Virus record (IMG/VR): IMGVR_UViG_3300010354_000698
Span: 1-22,950 of that record
Strand: one strand, 5' to 3'
DNA: 22,950 nucleotides
From: a virus
Shown: positions 3,974-15,117 of the stretch, piece after piece
Layout: each line of letters begins with the position of its first letter
Position numbering within the stretch: the first letter of the stretch is position 1
Program-made: the position numbers and the translations under genes
The notes under the pieces: generated by a model
Told to the model about the DNA's origin: nothing
Seen by the model: the letters and a program-made list of their open reading frames with translations, nothing else
Database searches by the model: none

Positions 3974-6154
3974 TCAAACAGTACCTGCAACTTCTTCAAA
4001 ACTTACTCCAGTTCGAGTAGCAACAAAAGTAAGAGTTACGTAGTTGATAGACTTAGCTGGTTTCAGGTAAATATCAGCTCTAAATTCATTATTATCAATA
4101 ACATCTGGAGTGTTATTTGTCGTATCACAAACAACTAAGAATCCATAAAGACCTCTCTTTGCTTGAATATCTCTGAGGTATGGTTCTACGATATTCTTAA
4201 AGTTTGCTCTAGTGAGTTCATCATTCAGTTCAAACAGTTGAGCTTGTGCTGCTTTTTGTAAAGCTTGCTCAATTGTGAGGAATAAGCGGCGAACGTTAAT
4301 TCTATCAAATGCTGACGCATATCCCAGTGCAGTTTTATCCCCAAACAATAGAGTTCCAATTCCAGGTTGAGTTATAACAGAATTAATTCTCAATGGATAA
4401 AGTTGATCTCTTTGTGCTTTGTTTGGATTGTATGCAAGTTTAATTGCATTATTGATAATGCCTCTTTGTTGTCCAGCAGGAGAGAACCAAGGATAAGAAA
4501 TAATGTTAGTGCGGCACATGAGACCAGCAATATCCGCATTACATGGGATATATACAAACTTATTATTGAATCTATCATAGGTGTACTTGTATCCACTATC
4601 AAATACTGCATATGATGATGAAGTTAGTGAACTGAAATACTTAATTAAGTTTGTAGTCTGAGTAGTTGTATTTGTCACTCCAATTAGATTTGATCTATGT
4701 GGACCAATAACGGCAACACAATCCTTTCTATTCTCTGCAAGTGAGATTAGATATTGTGCTTTTGCTTGAGTATCAGACTCAGAATCAAATCCAGGTCCCA
4801 TGATAATATAATCTGCTTGGATCTCATCTTTATTTGAGAAGAGATTATATGAATTAATTAGATCACCTAAGGCTGGCTTCATTCCACCAGCAGCAGAATA
4901 ATCAACACCACCACCTAGAGTATAAGTCTTGTTACCAATAGCACTGAAGGTTACATCTTGTGCCTCTAGACCCCACAAACCATCTGCAGTTGTGATTGGA
5001 GTGAATCCAGATGAGAAACCGGTTGCTCTAGGAGTAGTTCCCCAATATGCATCAGTTGCGGATGATGGATTACCTCCAGCATAAATTTGAGATGAGAAAT
5101 CTGCAATATATTGCTCATACCAGATTTTCTGAGGAGAATTAACCGCAGAAATAGCATCTAGTGCTTTTGATAAGAATAAGTGCTTCTCAAGAATTGTTCC
5201 TTGATTTCCTGTGATTGATCCTAGGTCATCAACTACAGCAACGTGTAATGCATCATTCTTACCATTTCTTTCTAATGAATGCCTATTAGTAACTGGTTTT
5301 GGTGCAATAGACTTCCAGTAAATTGTGGTATTTGTGAGATTCAGAGTTTGGTCATCATACCAGTCAGATACTGTAACAGCAGAAGTACTTTGTGTTGAAA
5401 TTCCAGAAGAATTTACAAAGTTGATTGTTGTCCCAGCAACAAATGCTGATGTAGTTGAACCTTCTGCGTAATTAATTTTAGTTTCTGTTCCAGCAGAAGA
5501 AACTCTCGATGTAACCTTAACGGTAATGGTACTGTTTCCGTTTGTTGCATCGGTATTGATGCCAGTGATGATCCCCTTTAAGTATCCAGTGAATACTGAA
5601 GTTGATCCAGAACCAGCAATTGTAGTTGTAAGTGCAGAAGTAACTCCAAGTCCAACAGAAGCTCCAAGTGCTCCGAGATTGGTTGTAGTAATTCCAATAA
5701 TTTGATCCGCTAAATCGTCAATAAAGCAGACCTTTAATCCATTTGCCCAAGAACCTGGATTCTTTGCTGCAAATGTAAAATTATTACCATCAGAATGATT
5801 ATTTGTATAATCATCGTAATTGTCAATCTTCAGAGAAGTTGTAGAAGCAGCACCTACTCCAGCATTTGCATTATTGAGTAGTGAACCGCTAGTTCTCGCA
5901 ACTTTTAGAACTCCGCCATATGAAAGATATGAAGAAGCACTCATCCAATATTCGTATTGGGAATCTGTTGAGAGTGGTTTTCCGAAAGTATTGATTAAAT
6001 CCTGTTCAGTTGCAATATCAATAGGATAATCAACTGGTCCAATTGGGAAAGGTCCAGCAATTACTCCAATATTATCTAAAACATTATCAGCTCTTCCTAC
6101 AGTTAAGTCAACCTCTCTGACGAGTACGCCTGGAGATAATTGAGGAGTCGCCAT
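3974..6154 (-). CDS. 18: Tail sheath protein gp18
   Basis: This 726-residue protein forms the contractile sheath around the gp19 tube. The N-terminus MATPQLSPGVLVREVDL and the GVIAGPFPIGPVDYPIDI block (~31-48) are typical of T4-like sheath subunits. The conserved C-terminal half has KYTYDRFNNKFVYIPCNADIAGL (~519-540), the WFSPAGQQRG motif (~555), AFDRINVRRLFLTIEQALQKAA and the final YLKPAKSINYVTLTFVATRTGVSF strands that polymerise the sheath. Residues ~150-285 are a Thr/Ser/Gly-rich beta insertion, probably a surface-exposed domain; T4 gp18 is 659 residues. ATG at 6154 follows GGAG by six bases. The leader holds a late promoter inside a long hairpin that covers this ribosome site, suggesting translation only from late transcripts. 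Confidence 0.97.
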   Translation of the reverse strand: MATPQLSPGVLVREVDLTVGRADNVLDNIGVIAGPFPIGPVDYPIDIATEQDLINTFGKPLSTDSQYEYWMSASSYLSYGGVLKVARTSGSLLNNANAGVGAASTTSLKIDNYDDYTNNHSDGNNFTFAAKNPGSWANGLKVCFIDDLADQIIGITTTNLGALGASVGLGVTSALTTTIAGSGSTSVFTGYLKGIITGINTDATNGNSTITVKVTSRVSSAGTETKINYAEGSTTSAFVAGTTINFVNSSGISTQSTSAVTVSDWYDDQTLNLTNTTIYWKSIAPKPVTNRHSLERNGKNDALHVAVVDDLGSITGNQGTILEKHLFLSKALDAISAVNSPQKIWYEQYIADFSSQIYAGGNPSSATDAYWGTTPRATGFSSGFTPITTADGLWGLEAQDVTFSAIGNKTYTLGGGVDYSAAGGMKPALGDLINSYNLFSNKDEIQADYIIMGPGFDSESDTQAKAQYLISLAENRKDCVAVIGPHRSNLIGVTNTTTQTTNLIKYFSSLTSSSYAVFDSGYKYTYDRFNNKFVYIPCNADIAGLMCRTNIISYPWFSPAGQQRGIINNAIKLAYNPNKAQRDQLYPLRINSVITQPGIGTLLFGDKTALGYASAFDRINVRRLFLTIEQALQKAAQAQLFELNDELTRANFKNIVEPYLRDIQAKRGLYGFLVVCDTTNNTPDVIDNNEFRADIYLKPAKSINYVTLTFVATRTGVSFEEVAGTV

Positions 6155-6160
6155 GTTTTT

Positions 6161-6216
6161 CTCCGTAAAGTCTCAGTTTATCTAGAAATTATTTATTAAA
6201 AATTCACTTTACGGAG
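6161..6216 (-). promoter_or_regulatory. gp18 leader hairpin that covers the Shine-Dalgarno and encloses a late promoter
   Basis: An 11-bp perfect inverted repeat pairs 6206-6216 (minus strand CTCCGTAAAGT) with 6161-6171 (ACTTTACGGAG), with a 34-base AT-rich loop. The 3' arm ends in GGAG, the gp18 Shine-Dalgarno, six bases from the ATG. The loop contains AATAAATA. A read-through transcript from upstream would carry both arms and hide the ribosome site, while a transcript started in the loop would lack the 5' arm. It is followed by A residues, not U, so it is not an intrinsic terminator. The RNA switch is inferred by analogy with T4 late genes such as e. Confidence 0.7.
6190..6197 (-). promoter_or_regulatory. 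Late promoter AATAAATA for gp18
   Basis: Seven of eight bases match TATAAATA, 35 bases before the gp18 ATG. It sits in the loop of the gp18 leader hairpin, so initiation a few bases downstream would leave out the 5' arm. Confidence 0.6.
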
Positions 6217-6237
6217 GGGAAATTGGACGTGAACAAT

Positions 6238-6468
6238 TTACCAGTCAGGATATTCCCATTTATCAAAAACAGCACTTTTTATCCTATCTACAACTACACG
6301 TTTTATCGTGCAGTCTTTACATTCATAAGAATAAGAAGAAGCGACTGGTCCTCTATCTTTTCTTGTTCTATAGAATCCATCGATCAAATTTTTCATTTCT
6401 CCGCAAGTTCTACATTTGCGATCGGTAAGTAATAAATGTCCTAAACGTATCTGCTTATCTAGATCCAT
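6238..6468 (-). CDS. Small zinc-finger protein between gp17 and gp18 (76 aa)
   Basis: The preferred start is ATG 6468, one base after the gp17 stop (TAATATG), giving MDLDKQIRLGHLLLTDRKC. An upstream ATG at 6510 would give 90 residues but overlap gp17 by 41 bases and adds an unremarkable leader. Two CxxC pairs, CRTCGE (~19-24) and CKDCTIKR (~50-57), are separated by about 27 residues including DGFYRTRKDRGPVASSYSYE. This 'CxxCGe....FY..r...g....C..C' layout is that of the zinc ribbon seen at the front of many phage HNH and endonuclease VII-like proteins, but no nuclease domain follows (the protein ends KSAVFDKWEYPDW). It may be a stand-alone DNA- or RNA-binding protein or the remnant of a mobile endonuclease. 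T4 has no gene at this place. Function unknown. Confidence 0.8.
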   Translation of the reverse strand: MDLDKQIRLGHLLLTDRKCRTCGEMKNLIDGFYRTRKDRGPVASSYSYECKDCTIKRVVVDRIKSAVFDKWEYPDW

Positions 6469-6469
6469 A

Positions 6470-8116
6470 TTACATGTATTCCCACATATAAGCTCTATCG
6501 CCATATTCATCTAAAAACCATCTATCCCCATCGGGATCAACAAAACTTTCTCCAGAATCTATACCGTCAGTTATAAATCCAAATGGAGCCATATCTTGTT
6601 CTATCTGATTCTTCTGTTCTTCATATAAACGTTTTCTTACATCTTGATCTGTTAGTTCTTTAAAATAATCTTGCGCCACTAACCAAGCATATATTACTAG
6701 ACACATTGCAAGGTCATCATTACAACCTTCTTCTGCTTCAAATGAATTATGCTTTTGTACAAAGGTTGTAAGTTCAGAAATTATTTCATAATCTTTGAGG
6801 AAAAGTTTATCTTCCTCAATCATAGTTTTTAAATTTAAAGATCCAACTTTTTTTACTGTCTTTGACATTTTAACGCCAAGTTGAGTCTTTTTTCCCGAAA
6901 ACCCCTGTCCGACAATTTGACCTGCTCGGCCACGCATAGAACACATGAGTACATTTTGATACTCTAGATCATAATGAAGTAGAGACGCAACTTGATCGCC
7001 AATATCATTTACTTCGCACAAAATGTAAGCATTATTATAATTCTTCGCAACTTCATATATTATATTTGGGAAAAGCATCGGTTTGATTTCATTGTTTCTG
7101 TATTTTGCAACTAATCTATGAGGAAACTGCGTTATATCTACAACTACAAAAGCAGAATAGTCATTTCCAACACCTCTAGCAACGTCTACAGTGATCAAAT
7201 AGTCATGATCATCTATGCAGTCTTCATGAACGTCTAATCCAGCGTTTCTAGTTTGTGGATGGTCATATACTAGATTTCTAAGTTTAGATGGTGCAATAAG
7301 AGTATCAACAGACCCTAAAAATTCACACTCAAACTCAACTTTGAACTGTTGCTCTGAAGTGTTTGCGATTGTTTGTTTTTTCCACTCTTCATCACGTCCA
7401 GGAACTTCACTCCAATGAACGTCAGTAAACACATATTCGTTTTTACCCTTTTCCGCATCATGCCACATTCGGTAGAAGTGATTCATGCCGTGTGGGGTTG
7501 AAACTATAATTACTTTTGTTTGTTTACCGGAAGTAATAGTTGGATAAACCGACGCAAAAAATGAATCTGCGATGTGATTTGGAACGAATGCAAATTCGTC
7601 CAAAAAGAGAATATTGAAAGACATGCCACGAACCGCAGAAGCAGAAGTAGAAGCAGCCAAGATCTTACTTCCGTTCTCCAGTTCCAACGATCCTTTATTC
7701 CATGAGATAATACCTTGTTGCATCCACTTTGGTAAATTCTCATATGCGGTTTGAAGGCGATCCAGGAGTTCCCTTGCAGTTGCCGCCTTGTTTGCAAGTA
7801 TACCTATGTTTACATTGTCATTGAATACCGCATAGTGTAAAAGAAAAGATACTACAGTAGTAGATTTGCCAGTCTGACGTGGCATTTTACAAATGTTAAA
7901 TCTATTCTTATGGAAATTATTAATTAACTTTTCTTGGAAATGATATGGTTTAAATGTCTGTAGACCGTGATCCAAAGTTACAATTTTTACATAGTTATTT
8001 GCAAAATAAACGGGATCATCCTTGCATTTTAAAAATTCAAGAATCTGATCTTGACTAAATTCGATTGGGGTATTAGCTTTTTTTAGAAGCGGATTACCAA
8101 GATATACATCACTCAT
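6470..8116 (-). CDS. 17: Terminase large subunit gp17 (packaging ATPase-nuclease)
   Basis: This 548-residue protein docks on the portal, hydrolyses ATP to drive DNA into the head and cuts the concatemer at headful. The ATPase domain has Walker A PRQTGKST (79-86, Lys84), Walker B NILFLDE (168-174, Asp173-Glu174) and the coupling motif VSTP (205-208). The RNase H-like nuclease has its acidic residues at Asp311 (TVDVARG), Glu368 (CEVNDIG) and Asp467/Asp468 (CNDDLA), matching the Asp-Glu-Asp triad of T4 gp17. T4 gp17 is 610 residues; this copy has the shorter cyanophage length. ATG 8116 is preceded by GTAGGA at a spacing of six. The gene is 15 bases after the 570-residue modular gene, which ends in tandem TAATAA. 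All key residues are present, so it should be active. Confidence 0.98.
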   Translation of the reverse strand: MSDVYLGNPLLKKANTPIEFSQDQILEFLKCKDDPVYFANNYVKIVTLDHGLQTFKPYHFQEKLINNFHKNRFNICKMPRQTGKSTTVVSFLLHYAVFNDNVNIGILANKAATARELLDRLQTAYENLPKWMQQGIISWNKGSLELENGSKILAASTSASAVRGMSFNILFLDEFAFVPNHIADSFFASVYPTITSGKQTKVIIVSTPHGMNHFYRMWHDAEKGKNEYVFTDVHWSEVPGRDEEWKKQTIANTSEQQFKVEFECEFLGSVDTLIAPSKLRNLVYDHPQTRNAGLDVHEDCIDDHDYLITVDVARGVGNDYSAFVVVDITQFPHRLVAKYRNNEIKPMLFPNIIYEVAKNYNNAYILCEVNDIGDQVASLLHYDLEYQNVLMCSMRGRAGQIVGQGFSGKKTQLGVKMSKTVKKVGSLNLKTMIEEDKLFLKDYEIISELTTFVQKHNSFEAEEGCNDDLAMCLVIYAWLVAQDYFKELTDQDVRKRLYEEQKNQIEQDMAPFGFITDGIDSGESFVDPDGDRWFLDEYGDRAYMWEYM

Positions 8117-14067: not shown

Positions 14068-14913
14068 TTAACCTATCATATCTAAAGGTGGAAGTTCATA
14101 AGTACTTGACATTCTTTCCATAAGTAAATCAATTTCTCTTTGGGCATCGTCAAACATTTGTCTCCCATTGAGTTCAACTCCGCCTGGAAGTTTTACTCCA
14201 GTAAATTTCATCATATTTTGACCCCACTGCCTTTTGATTAATGCAGTTAAGTATGGTTTTAAAAATGAGTCGTTCCAAACCCTAGCATAATCATTTGGAT
14301 CTAAGGTAGTATAACAATCAATAACAATATACTGACCAACAGTTACTGAGGACCAATCTATATCCAAATATAATCTATCTTGCCTCTTATTAAAACGAAT
14401 TTGCTTTTGAGTATTTAATAAGAAATTTAAGTCTTCTAAGTATGTCTTTACCATTGCATAACTTAAAAGTTCAGTTGCCCCCCAATAATAAATGTCATTC
14501 AAGAATAGCTGATACTTGACACTAAACATATTATGCGTGATAGTATTTGAACTATCAAACGCAAAGATTTTATTAACACCAATTACATTCGGCGGAACTT
14601 GCAAATAGTTGCTATTTTCTGTATAAGTAAAGGTTGTGGGTGTACCTGCAATATTAGCAGTAGCTGTTGTGGAGGCAAGACCTACGGTGCTATTATTGTA
14701 TCCAGCTCTTCCCCTGTCAATATCATTTTGGGTTATTTTGTATTTGTAAAGAGCTGCATAAACTCCATCAAAATGCCTCTCTTGGAAAAATTGAACGGCA
14801 TCGTCTACAAGATCATCAATCTGCTCATCAGCAACGTTAATCTCTAAAACTGGCGCTCCCAGCTTCCTTTTGCAGTAATTTATTAATTCTTGTCTGGTAG
14901 ATGGTTGCGCCAT
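14068..14913 (-). CDS. 13: Neck protein gp13 (head completion)
   Basis: gp13 binds the portal after packaging and, with gp14, closes the head. This 281-residue protein starts MAQPSTRQELINYCKRKLGAPVLEINVADEQIDDLVDDAVQFFQERHFDGV, the well-conserved cyanophage gp13 N-terminus. The middle has VPPNVIGVNKIFAFDSSNT and QLFLNDIYYWGATELLSYAMVKTYLEDL (~133-160), and the end has KPYLTALIKRQWGQNMMKFTGVKLPGGVELNGRQMFDDAQREID, also typical. T4 gp13 is 309 residues. ATG 14913 has GGAG nine bases upstream and a late box 21 bases upstream. It is the first gene of a tightly coupled gp13-gp14 pair. Confidence 0.96.
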   Translation of the reverse strand: MAQPSTRQELINYCKRKLGAPVLEINVADEQIDDLVDDAVQFFQERHFDGVYAALYKYKITQNDIDRGRAGYNNSTVGLASTTATANIAGTPTTFTYTENSNYLQVPPNVIGVNKIFAFDSSNTITHNMFSVKYQLFLNDIYYWGATELLSYAMVKTYLEDLNFLLNTQKQIRFNKRQDRLYLDIDWSSVTVGQYIVIDCYTTLDPNDYARVWNDSFLKPYLTALIKRQWGQNMMKFTGVKLPGGVELNGRQMFDDAQREIDLLMERMSSTYELPPLDMIG

Positions 14914-14934
14914 TTATTGTTTCTCCATTAAGAA

Positions 14935-14942
14935 TATTTATG
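14935..14942 (-). promoter_or_regulatory. Late promoter CATAAATA for gp13-gp14
   Basis: Seven of eight bases match TATAAATA on the minus strand, 21 bases before the gp13 ATG. The TAA (14938-14940) is the stop codon of the preceding small gene. Confidence 0.65.
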
Positions 14943-15117
14943 TTTTGGGTAGAAGTAACTGAGAAACTACCTCTTGCTGCTTCAAATATAGTTTATAATA
15001 GCATTTTGCAATTTTTTTTGCATCTTCAATATTCTCTAAAGAATCTATTTCAGAAGCAACTTTAAAATACTCAAAACTTTTGCTTAAGTTTTCTAATTCT
15101 ATTTCATTTGGATCCAT
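14938..15117 (-). CDS. Small helical protein upstream of gp13 (59 aa)
   Basis: The start is taken as ATG 15117, with AGGAG eight bases upstream; the ORF also includes a TTG one codon earlier. It reads MDPNEIELENLSKSFEYFKV, then ASEIDSLENIEDAKKIAKCYYKLYLKQQEVVSQLLLPKT, predicted all-helical and acidic at the N-terminus. Short proteins of this type (KCYYKLYLKQQE) recur upstream of gp13 in cyanophages as I remember, without assigned function. It overlaps the preceding 75-residue gene by 14 bases, so the two are probably translated together, and its stop codon is embedded in the gp13 late promoter. Possibly a small virion or assembly factor; function unknown. Confidence 0.8.
   Translation of the reverse strand: MDPNEIELENLSKSFEYFKVASEIDSLENIEDAKKIAKCYYKLYLKQQEVVSQLLLPKT

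Follow-up and report, generated by a model that had tools for sequence, protein, structure and literature searches.

A conserved 27-nt box and a candidate translational hairpin at the late promoter of a cyanophage tail sheath gene

The leader of the tail sheath gene gp18 in cyanophage record IMGVR_UViG_3300010354_000698 has an inverted repeat with a late promoter in its loop, and one arm of the repeat includes the Shine-Dalgarno (SD) sequence of the gene. The DNA analysed is a stretch of 22,950 nt of this record and is referred to as the window. Leader hairpins that act as switches have been described for T4 gene e (lysozyme), soc, 49 and I-TevI and for Aeh1 mobE (PMC3014915). The gp18 leader raises the question of whether it holds a switch of this type or whether its sequence is shaped by another element.

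The inverted repeat and its predicted folding

The order of features on the minus strand is gp17, a small endonuclease-VII-like gene, the intergenic leader and gp18. The terminase large subunit gene gp17 (positions 6470–8116, Pfam PF03237 and PF17289) and the endonuclease-VII-like gene (6238–6468, a zinc protein of 76 aa from an inner ATG, phrog_4723) are upstream of gp18 (3974–6154, Pfam PF17482 and PF04984) and co-directional with it, and any read-through transcript would be supplied by gp17. There is no intrinsic terminator in the gp18 leader; the sole one found is within gp17 (6524–6537). A search of positions 6000–6400 in Rfam gave no match up to E = 1. The motif ATAAATA has seven copies in the window, all seven on the coding strand.

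A preliminary description of the locus had reported an 11-bp perfect inverted repeat with a 34-base loop, and the sequence bears this out. The 5' arm CTCCGTAAAGT (6216–6206) and the 3' arm ACTTTACGGAG (6171–6161) are perfect reverse complements on the minus strand. The 3' arm terminates in GGAG (6164–6161), the SD of gp18, which is six bases from the ATG (6154–6152). Between the arms, also as described, is AATAAATA (6197–6190), a T4-type late promoter element with the cyanophage consensus NATAAATA (PMC2984593). In T4 geometry transcription starts one helical turn below the TATA-like element (PMC2988020), which would place the late start at 6184–6183.

No other perfect repeat of at least 11 bp (loop up to 60) is present in the window. 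First-order Markov shuffles (n = 15) contain 0–2 repeats of 11-bp length, and none of these has five or more G/C. About half of the bases in the 5' arm are part of a strongly conserved box upstream of the promoter: the arm opens with the final C of TTTCCCC, and further in it has the G and the AAA of the box. With half of this arm derived from the box, the two arms cannot be treated as independent random sequences. Among random 5' arms with the column composition observed in the 5' region, 0.5% would pair equally well with the 3' arm of the window, which amounts to about one leader per family of 216.

Secondary structure modeling of a 106-nt read-through RNA places the 11-bp stem in the minimum free energy structure (-19.7 kcal/mol). 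The fold has a z of -2.9, with 2 of 200 shuffles equally good, and the z is -1.3 once the flank is lengthened. The stem is lost in a late RNA assumed to start near 6183. The predicted cost of opening the GGAG is 10.0 kcal/mol in the read-through RNA and 3.0 kcal/mol in the late RNA, which agrees with the switch that the preliminary description had proposed. The two properties of a gene-e-type leader are thus present by prediction: the longer transcript has its SD within a helix, and promoter placement would leave the late RNA without the 5' arm, given the start near 6183 from T4 geometry. The mechanics of such a switch exist on paper in this phage.

A weaker hairpin of like design in the window (14068–14985, minus strand) has GTTTCTC and GAGAAAC around an ATAAATA (14935–14941), and its 3' arm GAGAAAC overlaps the SD of a neck/adaptor-like gene (phrog_211). 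It is probably due to chance: the fold z is 0.0, and S-SM2 and S-SCSM2R have no stem in common with it. The leaders of the S-PM2 group (L177–L198) have a GTCCAA/TTGGAC inverted repeat around the gp18 late promoter; this repeat is upstream of the SD and therefore would not mask it.

Variation of the hairpin among related leaders

Leaders of gp18 were gathered from IMG/VR and from named phages. The nearest relative, L001, has a gp18 that is 94% identical. Between the promoter and the ATG its leader matches that of the window base for base, the 3' arm included. Its 5' arm is CTATGTAAAGT in place of CTCCGTAAAGT. Two bases are changed, they are uncompensated, and the masking is gone: SD opening costs 3.5 kcal/mol, compared with 3.0 kcal/mol in its own late RNA. 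When these two bases are placed in the window leader, SD opening falls to 3.0 kcal/mol.

In a pattern scan, 27 distinct leaders shared both the inner 7 bp and the 3' arm with the window. All four bases opposite the SD are paired in two of them, where 3.6 are expected from column composition. The other 25 lack this pairing, and CTCC is present in none of the 27. The preliminary description had called for a search for compensatory changes in the two arms and had named independent variation of the arms as grounds for rejecting the switch; such independent variation is largely what L001 and these 25 leaders show. About half of the stem appears to be shared among relatives, because the 5' arm contains box bases.

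A comparison of 72 representatives gives the same picture. SD masking is 3.79 kcal/mol in native leaders and 3.67 kcal/mol in chimeras with foreign 5' halves (P = 0.43), and both exceed shuffles. Conserved SD masking as a general rule was rejected, since native leaders mask no more than chimeras. Retention of the structure in closely related phages, which supports the assignment in gene e, is not seen here; there is a weak family-wide excess only.

The size of this excess depends on how ancestry is treated. Native arms pair better than swapped arms when ancestry is ignored, with z values to -5.6, and -2.4 to -4.1 in larger groups. A comparison of sister pairs gives P = 0.05. In a tree-aware null, the 5' arm was simulated along the gp18 tree for 216 leaders; the excess at the SD has a z of -1.9 (P = 0.04), and there is none in the upstream UTR. 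Four leaders are at or below -17 kcal/mol compared with 1.0 expected on the tree (P = 0.02), and about half of the simulations yield a best leader as strong as that of the window. In the window's own clade the tree-aware mean effect is not significant (P = 0.11). The null is conservative in that its column frequencies may carry some selection. Strong co-evolution of the arms, as suggested by the plain native-versus-swapped tests, is reduced to marginal by the sister pairs and the tree simulation, and the family-wide excess of SD masking is slight against the tree-aware null (P about 0.02–0.05).

SD-masking stems of equal strength and other spelling are found in a few distant relatives, i.e., S-SCSM2R (CCCTCTGAA/TTCAGAGGG), the P-TIM68 group (TTCCCCT/AGGGGAA in P-TIM68), L074 and L269. 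These differently spelled stems suggest that a switch may occur here and there.

A gene-e-type switch selected in this phage, where gp17 read-through RNA masks the SD and late RNA started in the loop is translated, is therefore a reading with evidence on both sides. The difference in SD opening, the loss of the stem in the late RNA, the position of the promoter between the arms, the differently spelled stems and the number of leaders at or below -17 kcal/mol all favor it. The uncompensated loss of masking in the nearest relative, the pairing of the SD in fewer same-3'-arm leaders than expected, the equality of native and chimeric leaders and the non-significant mean effect in the window's clade make it unlikely. 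The original proposal is partly supported: the anatomy and the energetics fit in this phage, and the masking is without conservation in the nearest relatives. The hairpin is best taken as a lineage-specific addition, perhaps accidental, rather than a conserved switch. Since it is largely restricted to this phage, it says little about regulation across the group.

A 27-nt box upstream of the gp18 late promoter

A 27-nt box, GTTCAYGYMNNGTTTCCCCNNTGAAAA, precedes the gp18 late promoter at -38 to -12 from xTAAATA. The copy in the window is GTTCACGTCCAATTTCCCCTCCGTAAA (6208–6234, minus strand), with TTTCCCC at 6216–6222, 19 nt from the xTAAATA core. An alignment of the 72 representatives without gaps, anchored at xTAAATA, resolves three blocks: GTTCAYGYM (from -38), GTTTCCCC (-27 to -20) and TGAAAA (-17 to -12). 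Most columns between the blocks and the promoter have near-zero information. The C residues at -23 to -21 are present in 96–97% of the representatives; TAAATA is invariant, partly by selection since the leaders were anchored on it.

The spacing is as constant as the sequence. Of the 175 leaders with TTTCCCC, 167 have it at exactly 19 nt upstream of xTAAATA, and GTTCR is 7 nt above TTTCCCC in each of the 132 leaders scored. The spacer between box and promoter has a mean identity of 51%, and the promoter-to-ATG distance ranges from 31 to 40 nt, i.e., the spacer and the 5' UTR diverge while the box and its spacing stay fixed. Spacing that is exact to one base across a diverged spacer suggests a double-stranded DNA site that is read jointly with the promoter.

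The box is found once per genome in S-PM2, S-SM2, P-TIM68 and S-SCSM2R (200 kb searched in the latter), where a position weight matrix scores 30–36 bits at gp18 and less than 10 bits anywhere else. In 42 other late leaders, taken from the window and the same phages, no conserved column was found upstream of TAAATA. The gp18 promoter has the TATAAATA-like element of T4-type late promoters. Sequence at the -35 position is not conserved in T4 late promoters (PMC2988020); the 42 other late leaders conform to this, and the gp18 promoter does not. In the openly accessible literature the box appears to be undescribed. Degenerate forms are present in P-RSM6, S-RSM4 and P-TIM40. A short coding stretch was rejected as an explanation, since the distance from the stop codon to the box is mostly -2 to 5 nt and does not vary in threes.

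The box adjoins the endonuclease-VII-like gene, and the two co-occur closely: 194 leaders have both, 42 have neither, 5 have the box only and 6 have the gene only. The box is absent where gp17 abuts gp18, e.g., in S-RIM2, ACG-2014d and ACG-2014f. When the gene is sited elsewhere (beside psbA in P-SSM2, and in AG-345-O18) no box follows it. The box as the 3' end of this gene was rejected on the latter ground, and the box would belong to the gp18 junction or promoter. The tight co-occurrence makes another, gene-linked role possible. In leaders L317, L319 and L332 an intact box (35–37 bits) is before gp18, and the endonuclease-VII-like gene was undetected upstream.

The phrog_4723 protein (6238–6510 in the window, minus strand; 113 cyanophage records) is usually encoded between gp17 and gp18, and within the collection it is confined to cyanophages and marine single-cell viruses. 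It has been variously annotated as endonuclease VII, PacI protein or hypothetical protein, and Pfam gave no significant match. The P-SSM2 gene beside psbA has a late-promoter-like TAAATA of its own downstream.

The explanation that is given a slightly better than even chance is that the late promoter of gp18 has an upstream element dedicated to it, the hairpin being a phage-specific addition on top of it. The box would be a double-stranded DNA site that spans approximately -51 to -25 relative to the start point, and a protein bound there would contact the late sigma machinery or RNA polymerase and determine how strongly the sheath gene is expressed. The hairpin of 11 bp would be built partly from the 3' end of the box, with an extension of a few bases into the SD. 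By this mechanism gp17 read-through RNA would give no translation of gp18, and late RNA that starts inside the loop would be free.

A wider form of this explanation is tentative: in most marine cyanomyoviruses one late promoter alone would be accompanied by an upstream recognition element. A phage or host protein would read this element and set sheath synthesis apart from all other late genes, possibly in connection with the endonuclease-VII-like protein. T4-type late promoters are described as a bare TATA-like box. A single-copy upstream element that is held at its distance to the exact base in many genera of cyanophages, and that is restricted to the sheath gene, would imply that late genes differ in how they are turned on and that an additional factor adjusts tail assembly in abundant ocean phages.

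Other functions of the box

The box may also be regarded as an RNA element, in which UUUCCCC is a general weak anti-Shine-Dalgarno in read-through RNA that is reinforced by its flanks in some phages. Box-keeping chimeras mask the SD better than shuffled leaders (3.67 compared with 2.97 kcal/mol, P = 3e-6), and the tree-corrected excess is located at the SD and absent from the upstream UTR. However, pairing does not require exact promoter spacing, and the GTTCAYG half of the box is without a partner. The C-run is invariant, whereas the complement of GGAG would be CTCC; TTTCCCC does not shift to the perfect complement TTTCTCC even though the SD is mostly GGAG. Pairing is therefore no explanation for the invariance of the box, and a C-run that does not track the SD argues against a mainly RNA role, which is considered rather improbable.

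A few leaders with a decayed box (S-RSM4, which is L441, and L353, L074 and L372) have a sequence complementary to their own SD in the box position. Examples are ACCTCT/AGAGGT in S-RSM4 and CTCCC/GGGAG in L353; such leaders are very few. Given these complements and the slight tree-corrected excess, there may be some RNA-level selection on the leader.

A packaging-linked site below the terminase genes, where box and late promoter would load a terminase that binds gp55, is very doubtful: the single copy beside gp16/gp17, the co-occurrence with the small endonuclease-VII-like gene and the interaction of T4 gp17 (terminase) with the late sigma gp55 (PMC9026906) are consistent with it, but the box is retained, or nearly so, in P-TIM68 and P-TIM40 despite other genes between gp17 and the endonuclease-VII-like gene, and S-RIM2, ACG-2014d and ACG-2014f are boxless. 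Equally little weight is given to box and hairpin as inherited sequence with no present function: the relatedness and recombination of these phages would fit this reading, but the spacer and UTR are substitution-saturated and the UTR is variable in length while box and spacing are constant.

Comparison with known systems

The leader of T4 gene e resembles that of the window in that a helix hides the SD in the longer RNA and a late TATA-type promoter leaves the late RNA without the 5' arm. Similar leaders have been reported for gene e in closely related T-even phages. Unlike gene e, the gene in the window encodes a cyanophage tail sheath protein, the masking is a prediction that does not extend to the nearest relatives, and part of the 5' arm lies within a conserved box with fixed spacing to the promoter. 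The gp18 promoter shares with T4-type late promoters (gp55, gp33 and gp45) a TAAATA approximately one helical turn above the inferred start; unlike these, it has in most cyanophages a conserved block of 27 nt in the -35 region. The hairpin in the psbA 5'-UTR of S-PM2 (PMC5931967) is likewise an inverted repeat in a cyanophage leader that was noted from sequence. It differs in that it belongs to another gene, and neither SD masking nor a promoter-in-loop design has been claimed for it.
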